Positions 8,642-29,214 of a DNA stretch of 58,182 nucleotides are shown here, piece after piece. Position 1 is the first letter of the stretch; every line of letters starts with the position of its first letter. Source of the stretch: Segetibacter sp. (GTDB taxonomy: Bacteria > Bacteroidota > Bacteroidia > Chitinophagales > Chitinophagaceae); assembly GCA_021154405.1 (NCBI GenBank), contig JAJKIP010000129.1, forward strand, positions 1 through 58,182, given 5' to 3'. Both the position numbers and the translations under genes were made by a program. The notes under the pieces are model-generated. The model saw nothing but the letters and a program-made list of their open reading frames with translations, was not told where the DNA came from and made no database searches.

Positions 8642-9346
8642 TTATTTCAGGTTACCAGGGTTGGGAATGAAATTCAAAAATGAGTTGAGCGCCGCATTAT
8701 ACTTTCTCTTGTCCAGCTTATAGTAAAAAGCGCCTTTCTTGGACCTTGCTTTTTCTTTCTCCTTCTGCTTGACCAGCAGGTTGGTGGAGATCAGCTTGCG
8801 GCTGAAATTTCTTTTATCCAGTTCGATATTATATACACCCTCGTAAAGGCTGTGGAGCTGTGGAATAGTGAATTTGTCAGGAAGCAATTCAAACAGAATA
8901 GGGTGGAAGGCGGCTTTATATTTTAGTTTTTCTCTTGCCATTTCCACCATGAGGCCATGGTCAAATACAAGTTTGGGGATCTTGTTAAGGGAAAACCATT
9001 CAGCATGATAATCATCACTCAGCTGTTTCTCATAAAGATGAATATCTATCAGAGTAAAATAAGCGACGGAAATGGTACGTTCTGCAGGGTCCCTGTCTGG
9101 GTTACCAAAAGCATATAATTGTTCAAGATAAACGCCATCAAGACCTGTAAGCTGTTTCAGGATTCGGGAGGCTGCTTCTTCAAAACTTTCTTCCGGTTGC
9201 ACAAATCCACCCATTAAGCTCCAGCTTCCTTTTTGGGGTTCAAATCCTCTTTGAATCAATAAGATCTTGATATCCTCTCCATCAAATCCGAATATGATGC
9301 AATCCACGGCAGCGAGTACCCGTGTTTGTTTGGAATAATGTCTCAT
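8642..9346 (-). CDS. araR: Nudix-type transcriptional regulator of arabinose utilisation (AraR-like)
   Basis: A 234-residue protein with an N-terminal Nudix fold (about 1-145) and a C-terminal winged-helix DNA-binding region (about 150-234, FTIPQLHSLYEGVYNIELDK, rich in basic residues). The Nudix box is degenerate: the glycine, first glutamate and arginine remain (GFVQPEE...SR), but the catalytic RE and EE glutamates are replaced by RI and KQ. Loss of hydrolase activity is expected. The characterised Nudix-type AraR of Bacteroides thetaiotaomicron binds L-arabinose and represses arabinose genes, and this gene has the same position, immediately upstream of araBDA. The ligand is therefore probably L-arabinose. 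Related Nudix-type regulators (NrtR) sense ADP-ribose, but the context argues against that here. Confidence 0.85.
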   Translation of the reverse strand: MRHYSKQTRVLAAVDCIIFGFDGEDIKILLIQRGFEPQKGSWSLMGGFVQPEESFEEAASRILKQLTGLDGVYLEQLYAFGNPDRDPAERTISVAYFTLIDIHLYEKQLSDDYHAEWFSLNKIPKLVFDHGLMVEMAREKLKYKAAFHPILFELLPDKFTIPQLHSLYEGVYNIELDKRNFSRKLISTNLLVKQKEKEKARSKKGAFYYKLDKRKYNAALNSFLNFIPNPGNLK

Positions 9347-9427: not shown

Positions 9428-9486
9428 TGGGAAATATGCGAAGTCTCGCCATCTCGATGGCTCTCGGGACCACCTGGCTATTTCCC
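9428..9486. repeat. Long inverted repeat at the 3' end of the response-regulator gene
   Basis: GGGAAATA at 9428-9435 pairs with TATTTCCC at 9479-9486, overlapping the response-regulator stop codon. A smaller hairpin, GCCATC/GATGGC, lies between them. No T-run follows on the minus strand, so a simple intrinsic terminator is doubtful; an RNA structure between this gene and araR is possible. Confidence 0.4.
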
Positions 9487-10251
9487 TTTTTCATGATCCT
9501 TTTTACTCAGATAATCCGAGGGGGTCATACCAAACTGTTTCAGGAAATTCCTTCCAAAATTGGTTTGGGAGGCATAACCCACCATATTGGCGACCTCATA
9601 TATTTTATAGTTCCCTTCCACCAGTAATTCTGCCGCTTTTTTAAGTCGGGTAATATTGATTATTTCATTGGGCGAAAGATCAGACAGGGATTTTATTTTG
9701 CGATAGAGCGTGGGCTTGCTCATATTCATGAAGCGGGCAAGTTTCTCCACGTCCAGTTCTGTATCCCCTAGATTTTTTAAAATCGTTTCGTTTATTTTTT
9801 CCAGGAATAATTCATCTGCCCTGGAATAAGCCATGCTTTTTATGTGTACCAAGGGCGAACTGGCGAAATATTCCTTGATCTTATTCCTGTTTGTGAGGAG
9901 GTTTGCAATCTGCACCTGGAGGTATTCCGGAGAAAATGGTTTTTCTATATAAGCGTCTGCGCCAAGCTCCAGGCCTTCGATCTTTGACTGTAGTGTATTC
10001 CTGGCTGTTAGAAGAATAACGGGGATATGACTGAATTCAAAATTGCTCTTGATAAGGCCGCAGAGTTCAAAACCGTCAATAATCGGCATCATAACATCAG
10101 AGATCACAAGGTGAACGGCATTTTCCTTCAATAGGTCAAGGGCCTGTTGTCCATCCACAGCTTTGAGAATGGTATATTTCTCATTTAATTCATGCTCGAG
10201 AAATTCCAGGATCTCTTCGTTATCGTCTACTAATAATAATAGCGGATTCAT
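9478..10251 (-). CDS. Response regulator with AraC-type DNA-binding domain
   Basis: A 257-residue regulator with a receiver domain (1-120) and an AraC/XylS helix-turn-helix domain (about 150-250). The receiver has the acidic pocket D9-D10, the phosphoacceptor D52 in LVISDVMMP and the conserved K104 in YIEKPFSP. The C-terminal domain contains the two AraC helices (VEKLARFMNMSKPTLYRKI and VANMVGYASQTNFGRNFLK). These two modules normally form the C-terminal end of hybrid two-component systems in Bacteroidota. Here they are a separate gene starting 9 bp after the histidine kinase, so the pair looks like a split hybrid system. It probably activates the divergent SusC/SusD operon on sensing arabinan-derived oligosaccharides. 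Confidence 0.92.
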   Translation of the reverse strand: MNPLLLLVDDNEEILEFLEHELNEKYTILKAVDGQQALDLLKENAVHLVISDVMMPIIDGFELCGLIKSNFEFSHIPVILLTARNTLQSKIEGLELGADAYIEKPFSPEYLQVQIANLLTNRNKIKEYFASSPLVHIKSMAYSRADELFLEKINETILKNLGDTELDVEKLARFMNMSKPTLYRKIKSLSDLSPNEIINITRLKKAAELLVEGNYKIYEVANMVGYASQTNFGRNFLKQFGMTPSDYLSKKDHEKGK

Positions 10252-10260
10252 CAGTTATGA

Positions 10261-13200
10261 TTAATTTCCTTCCAGTACCACGGGGAAGGTTAGGGAAAAC
10301 ACGTTCATATTATTTGCTGTCTCTTCCAGCACCAGCTTCCCGTTCTGCAATTCCGTCAATGAGCGGGAGAGGGCCAGTCCTATTCCAGTACCTTTTTGTT
10401 TTTCGGTAGCCTTTAATCGAAAGAAGGGTTCAAATATCTTTTCTTTCATGTCTGGCGGTATAATATAACCGTCATTTTTTATTTGCAACGTAAAAAAGGT
10501 GTCAGATTGATTTACCGGCAAAAACACTACTTCTACTTTCTTTTCCGCATATTTTACTGCATTGCTGAAAAGATTAGTCAGTATTTTGTTGAATGCCTCG
10601 ATATCTATGTTGGCGCAAATTTGGTCTGTTACCGGTGCCATGGTAAGGCTGATATCCTTCTGTTCCGCCAGTGGTTTAAAGCTGAGGAACACCTCTTCTG
10701 TCAATTCAGTGATATTCGTTTTGACGAAATTCAGGCTAAAACCTTTTATTTCTGTTTGCCGAAAGTCGAGCAATTGATTGGTCAATGCAATAAGCCTGCT
10801 CGTATTTTTCTCCATGATCCGGAGGCTCTCATTGATGCCTGGACTGTCACCGGCTTTCTTTATGATCTTTTCCAGCGGCGCCTTGATAAGTGTCAGTGGT
10901 GTTTTGATCTCGTGTGCCACATTGGTAAAGAATTGCATTTTGGCTTCATACAACTCTTTTTCCTTTGCAGTTTCCAGTTGCTCAATCTTCCTCTTATTTT
11001 TTTCACGGGTGCGGATATGATAGTTACGGACCAGTAGAAATATGATGATCAGAGCTACTGCTATATAGGATAACCAGGCCAGGTTACTGCCCCACCAGGG
11101 CGGTAGTATTTCAATATGGAGAATGGATTCAGGCCCCTGCCAGTTTCCATTGGCGGAAGCGGCTTTTACCTTGAATGTATAGGATCCTGCCTTTAGCTCT
11201 GTGAAATAAACCTTACGGTTGGTTTTTAAATAGGTCCAGTCCTTGTCCAGGCCGTCCATCAGGTAAGCATATTCAGACATTTCAGGGGCTGTATAGGTCA
11301 GGGAAGCAAAGTCAATGCTGAAGGTGGACTGGTTATGGGTAAGACTGATCCTGTCAGTATAGGTAATTGATTTTGTTATGGGAGAGCCATTCCTGTTAAT
11401 GAGAAGGTCTTTGTTATTGACCTGGAATCCTGTAATGTAAACTACAGGTGTGAAATTAGAGGGTACCAATTGAGCCGGATTAAAACTGACCATTCCTTTA
11501 ACACTTCCAAAATACATTTTACCTGTTGAATCTTTAAAGGCAGAACTGAAATTGAATTGGTCATTCAGCAACCCGTTTGCCTTGGTATATACAACTGATT
11601 TTTCCGTTTTTGGGTTGAAGGCAACCAGTCCTCCTGAAGTGCTGATCCAGATCTGTTTATTATTATCCTCCAGCAGGCTTAATATAAAATTGGTGGGTAA
11701 TCCTGTTTGAGTACCATATCGGGTAAAGCTGCTATCCTTCTTATTAAGTCTGCATAAACCTCCTTCAGTAGCAAACCAGAGATTTTTATCACTATCCTGG
11801 AATAAACTATTTACCCGTTCACTCGCCAGGGAATTCTTTGTGTGAGCATTATACCGGAAATTGCCAGACTGTTTTGTGTTTGGATTGTAATAATAGACAC
11901 CATTTCCATAAGTCCCTGCCCAGATGGTTCCGTTCTCATCCTGCAAAATGGAAGAATACCAGATGAAAATGGGCAGGCCCTCAACAGGAATAAAATTGTC
12001 TTTTGATCTGTTATAACGATAAGCTCCGATAGTGGTACCAATGATTATTTCCCCGGAAGGTGATTTATAAATGCAATAGATAAAATTGCTGCGCAGGGAA
12101 TTGGGACCGGTGTTCTTTGAATAATGCCTGATAACCTTGCTGGTTCGTATGTCCATTACATCCAGCCCATGTTCGAAAGTACCTATCCATAATTCATTTC
12201 CGACTGGCAAAATACCATGGATATTGGAGTAGGAAATTCCGTCCCTGTTGCCTGTTGGCAGATAGCTAATGAATTTACCAGAAGCATCCAGCTTATTGAG
12301 CCCTGCATCTTCTGTACCGATCCAAAGATTGCCATATTGGTCCTGGTGAATTTCACGTACTACATTTCCGCTAAGTGAATTCCTGTTCTTATCAGGAAAA
12401 TAACGGGTAAACGTTAGCGGATGGTTGGGATAATAGCTAACTCCGCCAAAATAAGTGCCAGCCCAGATACCTCCTTCCCTGTCCTTGCAAAAAGTATATA
12501 CCGCATTATCAGATATGGAATAGGGATTATTATATTCCTTTCTCAGATTAGTATATTCACCTGTAGCCAGATTGTAAATAAATATTCCGGATTCAGTAGC
12601 GATCCAAAGTTCCGAAGGACCAGTTTGAACAAAATTGCGGGCAAAGATCTCGGTCCTGTCAGTATTGTAAGTAAGAATATCCTTATAGTCAAGTGTCTTA
12701 CTGTCAAATAGCTTCACTCCCTGGTTGGATGTGCCCACAACTATTCTACCTTCTGAAATACTATAAAGTTTTTCAATCCAGTTGGAAACAGGTTTTGGTG
12801 AACGTGCAAACAGATTAAAGCTATTGAAGGATTCTGTTGCGGGGTCATATTTCTTCAACAATCCGCCAGAGGTAGACACCCAGACAGATCCATCGGGCAA
12901 CGTACAAAGGGAGGTAGCTTCAAAATACTGCTTGATCGGAAAATGCCGAAAGGATTTTGATTTGATATTATACCTGAACAAATTAAAATTTGTAATAAAC
13001 CACAGATTGTCGTTTGCATCCATTTTAATATCCATCACCTGTGCGGTGATGGCAGCAGGAAGTAAACTAAAGCTTTCCAGGGTGGCATCATACCGGTAAA
13101 GTCCCTGCTCTGTTCCTACCCAAAGAATATCATAGGGATCGAGATACAGTGTATGAATGAAATTGCTACCAATGCTACTGGTATCATCCGGATCGTTTCG

Positions 13201-13404
13201 GAATATTTTGAAGGTAACACCGTCAAAGCGGTCAAGGCCATCCTTTGTACCAAACCACAGGAATCCTTTCTTATCCTGCACACAGGAGATCACTGCATTA
13301 TTTGACAATCCATTCTCCACCTGATAGTGGCGGAAATAATAGGATTGACAATGGACCCCCGAAAGGAAAACCAGTGAAATGGCAAGGAAGACTATGTATT
13401 TCAA
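10261..13404 (-). CDS. Periplasmic two-component-propeller sensor histidine kinase (split HTCS)
   Basis: A 1047-residue inner-membrane sensor. After a signal peptide (1-20) come many two-component-propeller repeats (about 25-680, for example GNLWIGTEDAGLNKL and DKNLWFATEGGL), a Y_Y_Y domain (about 700-760, YLMDGLDKDWTYL), one membrane helix (about 770-790), a HisKA domain with phosphoacceptor H831 in TNVAHEIKTPLTLI, and a HATPase domain (N948 in NLFSNAVKYAE, then GTGIGLALSRSL). The architecture equals that of hybrid two-component sensors for polysaccharide loci, but the protein stops after the ATPase domain; receiver and AraC domains are in the next gene. It is divergent from SusC, 367 bp away. 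An arabino-oligosaccharide ligand is inferred from context. Confidence 0.93.
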   Translation of the reverse strand: MKYIVFLAISLVFLSGVHCQSYYFRHYQVENGLSNNAVISCVQDKKGFLWFGTKDGLDRFDGVTFKIFRNDPDDTSSIGSNFIHTLYLDPYDILWVGTEQGLYRYDATLESFSLLPAAITAQVMDIKMDANDNLWFITNFNLFRYNIKSKSFRHFPIKQYFEATSLCTLPDGSVWVSTSGGLLKKYDPATESFNSFNLFARSPKPVSNWIEKLYSISEGRIVVGTSNQGVKLFDSKTLDYKDILTYNTDRTEIFARNFVQTGPSELWIATESGIFIYNLATGEYTNLRKEYNNPYSISDNAVYTFCKDREGGIWAGTYFGGVSYYPNHPLTFTRYFPDKNRNSLSGNVVREIHQDQYGNLWIGTEDAGLNKLDASGKFISYLPTGNRDGISYSNIHGILPVGNELWIGTFEHGLDVMDIRTSKVIRHYSKNTGPNSLRSNFIYCIYKSPSGEIIIGTTIGAYRYNRSKDNFIPVEGLPIFIWYSSILQDENGTIWAGTYGNGVYYYNPNTKQSGNFRYNAHTKNSLASERVNSLFQDSDKNLWFATEGGLCRLNKKDSSFTRYGTQTGLPTNFILSLLEDNNKQIWISTSGGLVAFNPKTEKSVVYTKANGLLNDQFNFSSAFKDSTGKMYFGSVKGMVSFNPAQLVPSNFTPVVYITGFQVNNKDLLINRNGSPITKSITYTDRISLTHNQSTFSIDFASLTYTAPEMSEYAYLMDGLDKDWTYLKTNRKVYFTELKAGSYTFKVKAASANGNWQGPESILHIEILPPWWGSNLAWLSYIAVALIIIFLLVRNYHIRTREKNKRKIEQLETAKEKELYEAKMQFFTNVAHEIKTPLTLIKAPLEKIIKKAGDSPGINESLRIMEKNTSRLIALTNQLLDFRQTEIKGFSLNFVKTNITELTEEVFLSFKPLAEQKDISLTMAPVTDQICANIDIEAFNKILTNLFSNAVKYAEKKVEVVFLPVNQSDTFFTLQIKNDGYIIPPDMKEKIFEPFFRLKATEKQKGTGIGLALSRSLTELQNGKLVLEETANNMNVFSLTFPVVLEGN

Positions 13405-25331: not shown

Positions 25332-25363
25332 GAAAAGTGAGAATCCTGAGGTTCTCACTTTTC
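25332..25363. terminator. Perfect hairpin before the BNR_4 gene
   Basis: A 12-bp perfect stem (GAAAAGTGAGAA at 25332-25343, TTCTCACTTTTC at 25352-25363) with an 8-nt loop ends only 28 bp before the likely start codon at 25392. As A and T runs flank it on both sides it could terminate in either direction, or act as a leader structure of the next gene. Confidence 0.55.
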
Positions 25364-25391: not shown

Positions 25392-26711
25392 ATGAACCGA
25401 TTACTACATTTAAGTCTTATACTTCTTTTATTTCCGGTTATTCTTCCCGCCCAAAAAAAGAAAGAAACGATCAGGATTGTAAATGTTGATTCCGGGTGGG
25501 CCAATAATTCAATCAATACCGTTGTATTTCGCAAGAATTCAATTGTGAGTTTTAAGGATACCCAGTTTATAGCATTCTATGATAGCAAAAGTTATGTAGT
25601 GTTAGGAAAAAGAAAAATTGGGAGCACTCACTGGCAACTGAAGCATACCTCTTTCAAAGGGAATACCAGCGATGCCCATAATTGTATTGGTATAATGACA
25701 GATGGGACAGGGTATCTTCATCTGGCATGGGATCATCATAATAATCCACTACGCTATGCCCAAAGCATTGCTCCGCGATCTTTGGAAATGACTGATAAAA
25801 TGGCAATGATCGGGAATGCAGAGCAGAGAGTCACCTATCCTGAATTTCATCGCCTCCCCAATGGTAATTTGATCTTCTTTTACCGCGATGGAGAGTCAGG
25901 ACAGGGGAACCTGGTCGTCAACCATTATGATATCCGAACCAGGAAATGGACGCGCCTTCAAAGCAACCTGATTGATGGCCAGGGCCAGCGAAATGCTTAC
26001 TGGCAGGCGTTTGTAGACAAAAAGGGTATTATACATATTTCATGGGTATGGCGGGAAAGTCCAGATGTTGCGAGTAACCATGATATGGCTTATGCAAGAT
26101 CTTCGGACGAAGGGAAGACATGGACAAAATCTACCGGAGAAAAATATGTGCTGCCAATTAATGCAGCCACAGCGGAGTACGCCTGTAAGATCCCTGAGAA
26201 AAGCGAATTGATCAACCAGACTTCCATGTTTGCCGATGCGGATGGTCGCCCATATATAGCCAGTTACTGGCGTGATGCTGGTGATTCAATTCCACAATAT
26301 CATTTAATATTTAAGAAAGGAAATGAATGGCAAATCCAAAATCTGGGCTTTCGCAAGACAGCATTTTCTTTAAGCGGAGCAGGTACCAAACGAATTCCCA
26401 TTTCAAGACCGCAGATCATTGCCTGGTCAGAAGGGAACAGACTGAATGCTGCCATAATATTTCGGGATGAAGAGCGAGGGAATAAAGTGTCTGCTGCTTT
26501 ATGCAGAGATCTTGGGCATGCTGGTTCTAAATGGCAGATCAGGGACCTTTCTGCCATTTCGGTTGGTTCCTGGGAACCCAGCTATGACACAGAACTCTGG
26601 AAAGAAAAGAGAATACTCAATTTATTTCTTCAGAGAACTGAACAGGTAGATGGGGAAGGAAGCGCCAATATTCCGCCTCAGATAGTAAAGGTCCTTGAAT
26701 GGAGTTTTTGA
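25392..26711 (+). CDS. Secreted BNR_4-family beta-propeller protein, candidate polysaccharide lyase
   Basis: A secreted protein of about 439 residues. I choose the ATG at 25392 (MNRLLHLSLILLLFPVILPA is a signal peptide); the ATG at 25374 adds six residues. The mature protein shows repeated propeller-blade motifs: TDGTGYLHLAWDHHNNPLRY, KGIIHISWVWRESPD, DADGRPYIASYWRD. It matches the BNR_4 type of repeat protein. That fold includes ulvan lyases (PL24/PL25) and L-rhamnose-alpha-1,4-D-glucuronate lyases. The following genes encode a GH88 unsaturated glucuronyl hydrolase and a GH154-like protein, so a lyase generating unsaturated glucuronate is a reasonable hypothesis. The histidine-rich WDHH segment may be part of the active site. 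Function is unproven. Confidence 0.75.
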   Translation: MNRLLHLSLILLLFPVILPAQKKKETIRIVNVDSGWANNSINTVVFRKNSIVSFKDTQFIAFYDSKSYVVLGKRKIGSTHWQLKHTSFKGNTSDAHNCIGIMTDGTGYLHLAWDHHNNPLRYAQSIAPRSLEMTDKMAMIGNAEQRVTYPEFHRLPNGNLIFFYRDGESGQGNLVVNHYDIRTRKWTRLQSNLIDGQGQRNAYWQAFVDKKGIIHISWVWRESPDVASNHDMAYARSSDEGKTWTKSTGEKYVLPINAATAEYACKIPEKSELINQTSMFADADGRPYIASYWRDAGDSIPQYHLIFKKGNEWQIQNLGFRKTAFSLSGAGTKRIPISRPQIIAWSEGNRLNAAIIFRDEERGNKVSAALCRDLGHAGSKWQIRDLSAISVGSWEPSYDTELWKEKRILNLFLQRTEQVDGEGSANIPPQIVKVLEWSF

Positions 26712-26786
26712 CGTATAAACAATTTGCCATTACCCGCAGGTAATTTATCTTCAGGCAAATAATCAATACAGGTTTTAATCGATTGT

Positions 26787-27992
26787 ATGATGAAGACATG
26801 CTGGTATATATTGTTTAGCCTGATAGTTATCGGGTTGTCATGCCATTCACCCAATAAATTAAGCAATTCCCCAAAGTCAGGGCTGGTCAAAACATTTGAT
26901 CAGAATTTTGCTGATGCTGCAGCGCAGTATAAGGTTTTGGGAAAGAATCTTCCTGCAGACAAATTCCCAAGAACTTTTTATCCAGCTACTGGCAAATATG
27001 AATTCAGCAATTCCGCCTGGTGGTGCAGTGGTTTTTATCCCGGTACATTATTATACCTGTATGAAGAAACGAAAGATCAGTCTTTATTAACGGAAGCTGA
27101 AAGAATATTGAAAGTGCTGGAAAAGGAAAAGAACAATACATCCACGCATGACCTGGGATTTATGATGTTCTGCAGCTTCGGAAATGCTAACCGCATTGCG
27201 CCCAAACCTGAGTATAAAGATATATTGCTGACCAGTGCCCGTTCACTTATCACCCGTTTCAATCCTAAAGTCGGCTGCATAAAATCCTGGGATGGTAAGC
27301 CTGGAGAATTTCTAGTTATTATCGATAATATGATGAACCTGGAATTATTATTCTGGGCTACCCGCGTCAGTGGCGATTCAACTTTTTATAAAGTTGCAGT
27401 TACCCATGCGGAAACAACCATGAAGAATCATTTCCGTCCTGATTACAGCTCCTATCATGTTATCAATTATAATTCTGAAACAGGGGCCATTCAGCAAAAG
27501 CGAACAGCGCAGGGTGCAGCTGATGAATCTGCTTGGGCCAGGGGCCAGGCATGGGGATTATATGGCTTTACTGTTATGTACCGGGAAACAAAGGATCCCA
27601 AATACCTGGATCAGGCAAAACATATTGCTGAATTTTTATTAAATCACCCCAATTTACCAGCGGATAAAATTCCTTACTGGGATTTCAATGCGCCAGGTAT
27701 ACCAAATGCATTGCGTGATGCCTCTGCAGGATCCATTATGGCGGCAGCCTTAATTGAGCTGGCTGATTATGTGGATGCCAATAGCAGCGCGAAATATCTT
27801 AAGACTGCGGAAACACAATTGCAAACACTTTCCAATTCAACCTATAAAGCAGCTCCAGGGACTAATGGAGGTTTTATTCTGCAGCATGGGGTTGGACATC
27901 TGCCTGGGAAATCAGAAGTAGACGTGCCCCTGACTTATGGTGATTATTATTTTATCGAGGCTATGATCCGGTATAAGAACCGCAAGAGGTAA
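26787..27992 (+). CDS. GH88 unsaturated glucuronyl hydrolase
   Basis: A 401-residue (alpha/alpha)6-barrel enzyme that hydrolyses the unsaturated glucuronyl unit left by a polysaccharide lyase. A lipoprotein-like signal ends at C19 (IVIGLSCHS). The two catalytic aspartates of the family are visible as D122 in THDLGFMMF and D180 in VIIDNMMNLEL; the segment DESAWARGQAWGLYGF is the family hallmark. Length is normal. It follows the BNR_4 gene by 75 bp and precedes the GH154-like gene by 16 bp, suggesting one uronate-processing transcript. GH105 is the nearest alternative, but the HDxGF and IDNMMN motifs favour GH88. Confidence 0.92.
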   Translation: MMKTCWYILFSLIVIGLSCHSPNKLSNSPKSGLVKTFDQNFADAAAQYKVLGKNLPADKFPRTFYPATGKYEFSNSAWWCSGFYPGTLLYLYEETKDQSLLTEAERILKVLEKEKNNTSTHDLGFMMFCSFGNANRIAPKPEYKDILLTSARSLITRFNPKVGCIKSWDGKPGEFLVIIDNMMNLELLFWATRVSGDSTFYKVAVTHAETTMKNHFRPDYSSYHVINYNSETGAIQQKRTAQGAADESAWARGQAWGLYGFTVMYRETKDPKYLDQAKHIAEFLLNHPNLPADKIPYWDFNAPGIPNALRDASAGSIMAAALIELADYVDANSSAKYLKTAETQLQTLSNSTYKAAPGTNGGFILQHGVGHLPGKSEVDVPLTYGDYYFIEAMIRYKNRKR

Positions 27993-28008
27993 TCTGTGAA
28001 AAATCAGT

Positions 28009-29214
28009 ATGAAAAAACTTTTCTTTCTCCTGATAATTGGAGCTATTCAATTAAGGTCCTCCGCTCAGGATCGTGAGCTCTGGATAAGCTATATGGATAA
28101 GATCGCGAGACCGGTGCTTTCCAATTTGGCAGAAGACAGGCTAAAAGAAAAAATGCCGGTTGAATTATCGAAACGAATCGATAATGCAAATAACCGAAGA
28201 CCAGTAGCTTACCTGGAAGCTTTTGGAAGAACCCTTTGTGGAATTGCACCCTGGCTGAATACCGAAGGTGGATCAAAAAAAGAAATTGATCTGCGTAACC
28301 AATATCGTCAATGGTCATTAAAAGCTATAACCAATGCCGTTAACCCTGGTGCCAAAGATTTTTTACAATGGAAAGGCGGTCAACCTTTGGTGGATGCCTC
28401 TTTCGTAGCTTATGGATTGATAAGATGCCCGTGGCTATGGGAACACCTGGATTCAACGGTAAAGAAACAGGTTGTTACTGCATTACAAACCACCCGTTCA
28501 ACACTGCCTGGCTATAATAACTGGATATTATTCTCGGGAATTATTGAAGCTTTTTTTTGTAAATACGGATATGAGTATGATATCCTTCGCATCGAATATT
28601 CAATTCGTGAATTTGCCAATCACTGGTATGTAGGGGACGGAATGTTTTCTGATGGAATGAATTTTCATTTTGATTACTACAATAGCATCGTTATCCATCC
28701 TCATTTAGCTGCTATATTAGATATCCTCAAAACAAAATCCCGGTCGTGGGACTGGTTTGTTCCCCGGCTGGATACAATTAATAAACGCTACGCAGAGATC
28801 CAGGAACGATTGATAAATTCAGATGGCAGCTACCCGGCAACAGGAAGATCAATCTGTTATAGAGCAGGTGTTTTTCATCATCTTTCTGATATCGCGTTAA
28901 GAAAGAAACTGCCTAATTCACTGCACCCGGCCCAGGTAAGAAGTGCATTGACGGCGGTGCTAAAAAAGACATTAGAGTCATCTTCTACTTTTAATAGAGA
29001 AGGCTGGCTGAATATAGGGCTCTATGGCAATCAGCCAGACCTGGCCGATGTCTATATTACTACAGGCAGCCTGTATATCTGCATGGATGCTTTTGTAGCG
29101 CTGGGATTAGCTCCTACAGATGAATTTTGGACAGCTCCTCCGGAACCCTGGACCTCCCTGAAAATATGGAAAGGGGAAGATGCACACCTGGATCATGCCC
29201 TGGATTTGAAATAA
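28009..29214 (+). CDS. DUF2264 / GH154-family protein
   Basis: A 401-residue secreted protein (signal peptide MKKLFFLLIIGAIQLRSSA). It matches DUF2264 proteins through RRPVAYLEAFGRTLCGIAPWL near the N terminus, the central YNNWILFSGIIEAFFCKYG, and GDGMFSDGMNFHFDYYNS, all consistent with an (alpha/alpha) toroid. Some members of this family are classified as GH154 and act as beta-glucuronidases in arabinogalactan breakdown. The acidic residues in GDGMFSDG are candidates for catalysis. It lies 16 bp after GH88 and ends the cassette. Specificity here is inferred from context only. Confidence 0.82.
   Translation: MKKLFFLLIIGAIQLRSSAQDRELWISYMDKIARPVLSNLAEDRLKEKMPVELSKRIDNANNRRPVAYLEAFGRTLCGIAPWLNTEGGSKKEIDLRNQYRQWSLKAITNAVNPGAKDFLQWKGGQPLVDASFVAYGLIRCPWLWEHLDSTVKKQVVTALQTTRSTLPGYNNWILFSGIIEAFFCKYGYEYDILRIEYSIREFANHWYVGDGMFSDGMNFHFDYYNSIVIHPHLAAILDILKTKSRSWDWFVPRLDTINKRYAEIQERLINSDGSYPATGRSICYRAGVFHHLSDIALRKKLPNSLHPAQVRSALTAVLKKTLESSSTFNREGWLNIGLYGNQPDLADVYITTGSLYICMDAFVALGLAPTDEFWTAPPEPWTSLKIWKGEDAHLDHALDLK

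Follow-up and report, generated by a model that had tools for sequence, protein, structure and literature searches.

Three adjacent genes beside an arabinan locus

We analyzed a 58,182-nt stretch of Segetibacter sp. DNA (contig JAJKIP010000129.1, hereafter the window) in which three intact + strand open reading frames (ORFs) span positions 25392-29214, separated by intergenic gaps of 75 and 16 bases. A preliminary description of this DNA had placed a BNR_4 propeller, a GH88 unsaturated glucuronyl hydrolase and a DUF2264/GH154 protein contiguously here, and both the ORF list of the window and Pfam agreed. The propeller matched BNR_4 (PF15892) with an E-value of 6.2e-91 and the third protein matched PF10022 at 3.3e-107; the match of the middle protein to Glyco_hydro_88 (PF07470) was more modest, scoring 37.7 bits where the cut-off is 26.6 (E-value 1.5e-9). 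The genome of origin (4.6 Mb in 383 contigs, 83% complete) was found to have one PL42-type gene, one DUF2264 gene and eight GH88/GH105 matches. It is the only genome in the genus of the window.

Table 1. Positions of the cassette genes and associated features in the window
Feature	Position	Strand	Remarks
PL42 (former GH145) seven-bladed propeller	25392..26711	+	439 aa if started at ATG 25392 (mechanical ORF start 25374); signal peptide; predicted to act as an exo Rha-alpha-1,4-GlcA lyase
GH88 unsaturated glucuronyl hydrolase	26787..27992	+	401 aa; predicted lipoprotein, signal judged by eye
DUF2264/GH154 protein	28009..29214	+	401 aa; predicted beta-glucuronate dehydratase; signal peptide judged by eye
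Phe54 codon of the propeller	25551..25553	+	occupies the posterior rhamnosidase His48 position of BT3686 in the alignment
Near-perfect hairpin, possible terminator	25332..25363	.	between the aldose epimerase and PL42 genes; strand unassigned

The propeller is predicted to be a lyase without a rhamnosidase site

Among solved structures, the closest relatives of the propeller were four Bacteroides GH145 structures (E-values of 1.4e-147 or better), followed by three sequences of the Fusarium oxysporum PL42 enzyme FoRham1 at about 1e-32 (7esl having 8e-33 and about 116 bits). Alignment to BT3686 of Bacteroides thetaiotaomicron (5muk) extended over the whole length with 55% identity in 404 columns. 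According to PMC10951650, CAZy has transferred both FoRham1 and its former GH145 homologs to PL42. Homology thus supports membership of the propeller in the rhamnose-alpha-1,4-glucuronate lyase family PL42, and a grouping with non-enzymatic sialidase-like proteins, which the preliminary description had named as the outcome that would tell against it, was not what we found. An ulvan lyase assignment (PL24/PL25) was also considered and set aside, the similarity being a short, weak match with a best E-value of 9e-6 (0.34 for PL25).

In BT3686 two separate active sites are described, the rhamnosidase site lying posteriorly and containing His48, the lyase site lying anteriorly and containing His90, Tyr143 and Arg333 (PMC8406133, PMC8377490), and mutants in H90, Y143 or R333 are described as inactive on wine arabinogalactan protein (AGP) (PMC8406133). 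The window propeller keeps the BT3686 lyase residues (D88 as D94, H90 as H96, H110 as H116, Y143 as Y149, R159 as R165 and R333 as R339), whereas His48 aligns with Phe54. Because the lyase residues are kept and the posterior histidine is replaced, the propeller should be a lyase only, with no rhamnosidase activity, and we rejected a GH145 rhamnosidase assignment since the catalytic posterior His is absent. With wine AGP as substrate, relatives lacking His48 are described as freeing rhamnose, and for one of these enzymes an unsaturated product was shown (PMC8406133).

To view these residues across the family we compared 36 PL42 loci, comprising 20 named loci, 15 from order-level genomes and the window. 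The named loci were found through similarity to the window protein and their flanks were taken symmetrically, some of them on short contigs, and the 36 are not independent (e.g., there are four Rufibacter and four Pontibacter loci). The order-level search matched 30 of 298 genomes at an E-value of 0.001 or better; the 16 strong matches (>570 bits) were used, and the remaining 14 were left out (four at 161-188 bits, two fragments at 43 and 96 bits, and eight under 41 bits). Locus L074 overlaps L066 and was not treated as separate in the residue and neighbor counts, its genes being entered under L066 in the substrate-gene count, and L027, which encodes a truncated protein, was left out of the trees.

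D88, H90, H110, Y143 and R159 (BT3686 numbering) were identical in all 36 homologs, and R333 was kept in each of the 35 rows that reach its position, one protein ending before it. Position 48 held His in six homologs, Phe in 15, Tyr in seven and eight other residue types once each, and its entropy stood at the 87th percentile of the alignment. On a tree built without column 48, the presence or absence of His in 36 rows (with BT3686 and without L027) required at least five changes, and a single clade of His48-bearing proteins was rejected by the approximately unbiased test (p of 1e-33, for a group chosen by the trait itself). Three Pontibacter loci (L019, L020, and L022) carry His48; the posterior site is therefore not confined to gut species, which speaks against a purely gut-driven origin. 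Judged by eye, there was no link between His48 and GH154, which lay near three of the six loci with His and 15 of the 30 without.

The GH154 protein is most likely a dehydratase supplying the GH88 enzyme

The DUF2264 protein matched BcGDH of Bacteroides caccae (9o4u) with 43% identity and an E-value of 1.7e-97. BcGDH, a GH154 protein, is described by Alvarez et al. (2025, PMC12269599) as a beta-glucuronate dehydratase that primes glucuronate for GH88, and the same source reports that the GH154 protein BT_3677 likewise dehydrates and that ten BcGDH alanine mutants lack activity. All ten of the mutated residues are kept in the window protein; among 20 GH154 proteins from PL42 loci (window included) nine were invariant, the tenth, N176, being Asn in only two. 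From these residues the window GH154 protein is most likely a glucuronate dehydratase, and it would provide a second source of unsaturated glucuronate.

For the GH88 protein, phmmer against solved structures gave 3wiw as the best relative (356 bits, E-value 2.7e-105), which we take to be a heparin-specific enzyme from Pedobacter. As the preliminary description had claimed, both catalytic aspartates are present: Asp122 and Asp180 align with the residues we take to be the catalytic D88 and D149 of the Bacillus unsaturated glucuronyl hydrolase (UGL), and what are presumably H193, Q211, and R221 of that enzyme are also kept.

Considering the three proteins together, we think it likely that they form an elimination cassette for glucuronate-ended side chains with two inlets and one outlet, each of the three reactions being one that we infer from characterized relatives and conserved residues. 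The PL42 propeller would use its anterior site to take off an alpha-L-rhamnose cap by beta-elimination, leaving a delta-4,5-unsaturated glucuronate; there His96 would act as base and acid with help from His116 and Asp94, and Arg165 would neutralize the carboxylate, with Tyr149 and Arg339 also contributing, while the posterior hydrolase site would be dead owing to Phe54. The GH154 protein would dehydrate bare beta-glucuronate ends to the same unsaturated sugar, and the GH88 enzyme would then hydrolyze this sugar from the chain whether the lyase or the dehydratase had made it. By their signals, as judged by eye, all three proteins would be periplasmic, with GH88 as a lipoprotein. Once released, the sugar would be passed to the KduI route; a relative of KduI is encoded in the genome, as is an L-rhamnose-isomerase relative scoring 490 bits, which is below the family cut-off. 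The pathway for rhamnose-capped glucuronate put forward in the preliminary description is supported by homology as regards the lyase family, and the unsaturated product and its removal by GH88 fit with it, but the role of GH154 needs to be changed to that of a dehydratase.

An older annotation would instead make the propeller a GH145 alpha-L-rhamnosidase and the GH154 protein a beta-glucuronidase, with GH88 serving something else. The best NCBIfam model for the propeller is indeed that of the BT3686 alpha-L-rhamnosidase (NF052497), and GH154 was originally described as a glucuronidase (PMC12269599). We nevertheless regard this annotation as very improbable: the 653.4-bit score falls below the curated equivalog cut-off of 700, Phe54 stands in place of the rhamnosidase His, relatives without this His are described as having no rhamnosidase activity on gum arabic, and dehydratase activity is described for both BcGDH and BT_3677.

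Linkage and fusion of the lyase with GH88/GH105

In 26 of the 36 loci the PL42 gene either had a GH88/GH105 gene as its immediate same-strand neighbor or was fused with one; GH154 was found in the fetched flanks of 18, and both families accompanied PL42 in 15. Within the 20 named loci alone GH88/GH105 was adjacent in 16 and GH154 was present in 10, the order-genome stretches having been placed to take in previously known GH154 matches, which favors the overall GH154 count. Of the 16 order-level genomes with a strong PL42 match, ten had GH88/GH105 no more than 3 kb from it and nine had GH154 no more than 20 kb away. The expectation from copy numbers is about 0.011 and 0.010 per gene, respectively, for loci that are related and a count that was made after the pattern had been noticed.

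Coupling of the lyase to a GH88/GH105 enzyme is supported by this pairing in relatives and, most directly, by natural fusions. In genome G209 a single 801-residue frame (L066, 1663-4068) carries both a BNR_4 (PL42) domain and a GH88-type (GH105) domain. Its congener G171 has the same two domains as separate genes with about ten bases between them; there the second gene encodes a lipoprotein-like signal of its own, and this internal signal peptide is lost in the G209 fusion. The same PL42-GH105 fusion, again of about 800 residues, occurs in a second species (G298, L081) with 89% identity to that of G209. A scan of viral contigs using the fusion protein found no relative.

These fusions also bear on whether the propeller might be a relic or might only bind its ligand without catalysis. 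Lectins and sialidase-like proteins are found among BNR-type propellers, although no result here favors such a role. With the lyase residues invariant in 36 homologs when only 84 of 404 alignment columns (about a fifth) are invariant, and with an in-frame GH105 fusion in two species, we find this explanation scarcely credible.

Other fusions involving these domains were seen. In G179 (L072, 10701-13061) a divergent BNR_4 domain is fused to a GH88/GH105 domain beside a PL42 gene with His48; in G101 (L062, 7637-10804) a 1055-residue GH2-PL42 fusion lies about 8 bases 3' of a GH154 gene; and a Dysgonomonadaceae bin (L024, 4031-6175) has a PL42-GH16 fusion.

The natural substrate

Characterized PL42/GH145 members are described as acting on AGPs or gum arabic (PMC8377490, PMC8406133), and several relatives of the window locus, L016 and L019 among them, have fuller AGP-type gene sets alongside. 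Of the 36 loci, eight had a GH43_24-like or GH30_2 gene in the fetched flanks; neither the cassette nor the named arabinan genes included a galactan backbone enzyme (GH43_24, GH30), and a GH30_2 gene of the genome lies on a different contig. Since seven of the 36 loci, that of the window being one, have GH51 arabinofuranosidase genes, side chains that bear arabinose are a plausible substrate. GH16 neighbors were set aside as evidence for AGP because their best solved relatives were mixed. An AGP-type side chain as the natural substrate is a guess, and gum arabic is its weakest part, as relatives with lyase activity alone are reported to leave gum arabic intact while cleaving wine AGP.

Several observations weigh against the elimination cassette and the AGP-type substrate as we describe them. 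The GH88 protein resembles glycosaminoglycan-type hydrolases (3wiw, 1vd5), not the GH105 that is paired with PL42 in Bacteroides plebeius. RhaA was not found in the 83% complete genome, and a search of the same genome, run without a positive control, gave no match to a GH43_24-type exo-beta-1,3-galactanase. Relatives lacking His48 are described as not acting on gum arabic (PMC8406133). Finally, ten of the 36 PL42 loci have no neighboring GH88/GH105 gene and 18 show no GH154 in the fetched flanks.

The same chemistry could serve another glycan, the rhamnose-glucuronate or glucuronate ends belonging to side chains of rhamnogalacturonan I, or to a microbial or algal exopolysaccharide or ulvan-like polymer, rather than to AGP. 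That the arabinan genes adjoin the cassette would fit this, as would the PL8-type lyase (L028) and the PL22-type protein (L010) held by other PL42 loci, the missing GH43_24 match and the low count of loci with GH43_24-like or GH30_2 genes. Set against these are the described activities of PL42/GH145 members on AGPs or gum arabic, the weakness of the ulvan lyase similarity and the AGP-type sets near relatives, and we consider a different glycan possible but rather doubtful. The preference for AGP or gum arabic over arabinan alone expressed in the preliminary description is tentative, given the intervening hairpin (see below), the lack of a GH43_24 match in the incomplete genome and the reported sparing of gum arabic by lyase-only relatives.

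The hairpin and the adjoining genes

The arabinan locus that the preliminary description had noted alongside is present: SusC/SusD, two GH51 genes, a GH43 endo-arabinanase relative and an aldose epimerase adjoin the cassette, with araA, an FGGY kinase and a class II aldolase-type epimerase on the opposite strand nearby. Because a stable hairpin lies between the epimerase and PL42 genes, the cassette is probably its own unit. The predicted RNA fold has -19.3 kcal/mol (z -5.8), none of 200 shuffles being equally stable, and a scan flagged the - strand; possibly it terminates the arabinan operon and so sets the cassette apart from it. As the hairpin stops 28 bases 5' of the PL42 start codon, a promoter would lie upstream of it, or else the hairpin would belong to the leader. 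A Bacteroidota consensus promoter pattern had no match in the window (2.8 expected by chance), and neither did Rfam.

Two regulators were also seen on the - strand. Beside the arabinan locus, at 9478-13404, is a hybrid two-component system that is split into a 1047-residue protein with a sensor propeller and histidine kinase and a separate 257-residue response regulator with an AraC-type helix-turn-helix, nine bases apart. At 8642-9346, beside the arabinose genes, is a NUDIX and winged-helix regulator with an AraR-type C-terminal match.

Relation to known systems and significance

Every enzyme type in the cassette is already known, and the cassette is a new example with a testable mechanism, not a new kind of system. 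BT3686 is alike over its whole length and in its anterior lyase residues, and differs in having its own posterior His48 and in the NF052497 score that the window protein falls short of. For BACPLE_00338 (GH145) and BACPLE_00337 (GH105) of Bacteroides plebeius, which have adjacent locus tags, and for BACCELL_00856, PMC8406133 describes a GH145 enzyme that acts only as a lyase, with an unsaturated glucuronyl hydrolase to clear its product; the B. plebeius pair, as described there, has a GH105 and a sulfated wine AGP setting, whereas the window has a UGL-type GH88. FoRham1 shares the reaction type and the His-His-Asp, Arg and Tyr set, but is distant from the window protein and is active on gum arabic, a substrate reportedly left uncleaved by the bacterial members that are lyases only. 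The BcGDH and BcGH88 pair of B. caccae PUL25 likewise has a dehydratase feeding a GH88, there with chondroitin as the substrate and no PL42 partner named. While 3wiw is the best solved relative of the window GH88, the PL42 partner in the window points to another substrate. Since BT_3677 (GH154) and BT3686 (GH145) are nine locus tags apart in B. thetaiotaomicron, the combination of these families is not new in itself; in titles and abstracts from literature searches on GH154, GH145, DUF2264, and PL42 we found no description of the lyase-plus-dehydratase pairing or of a PL42-GH105 fusion.

The cassette offers a compact example of how GH154 as a dehydratase family, proposed in 2025, makes sense of all three genes, and it suggests a fresh look at DUF2264 genes that stand next to GH88/GH105 and carry a beta-glucuronidase annotation. 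For taking rhamnose-glucuronate caps off AGP samples, the PL42-GH105 fusion would be a ready-made bifunctional tool. Our confidence is evenly balanced on a broader picture, in which the lyase site of PL42 stays constant while its posterior rhamnosidase site is gained and lost, in Pontibacter-like environmental lineages as well as in gut Bacteroides, and in which glucuronate-ended side chains across the Bacteroidota would often be cleared by elimination alone, with a lyase for capped ends, a dehydratase for bare ends and a single GH88/GH105 enzyme, sometimes fused to the lyase.

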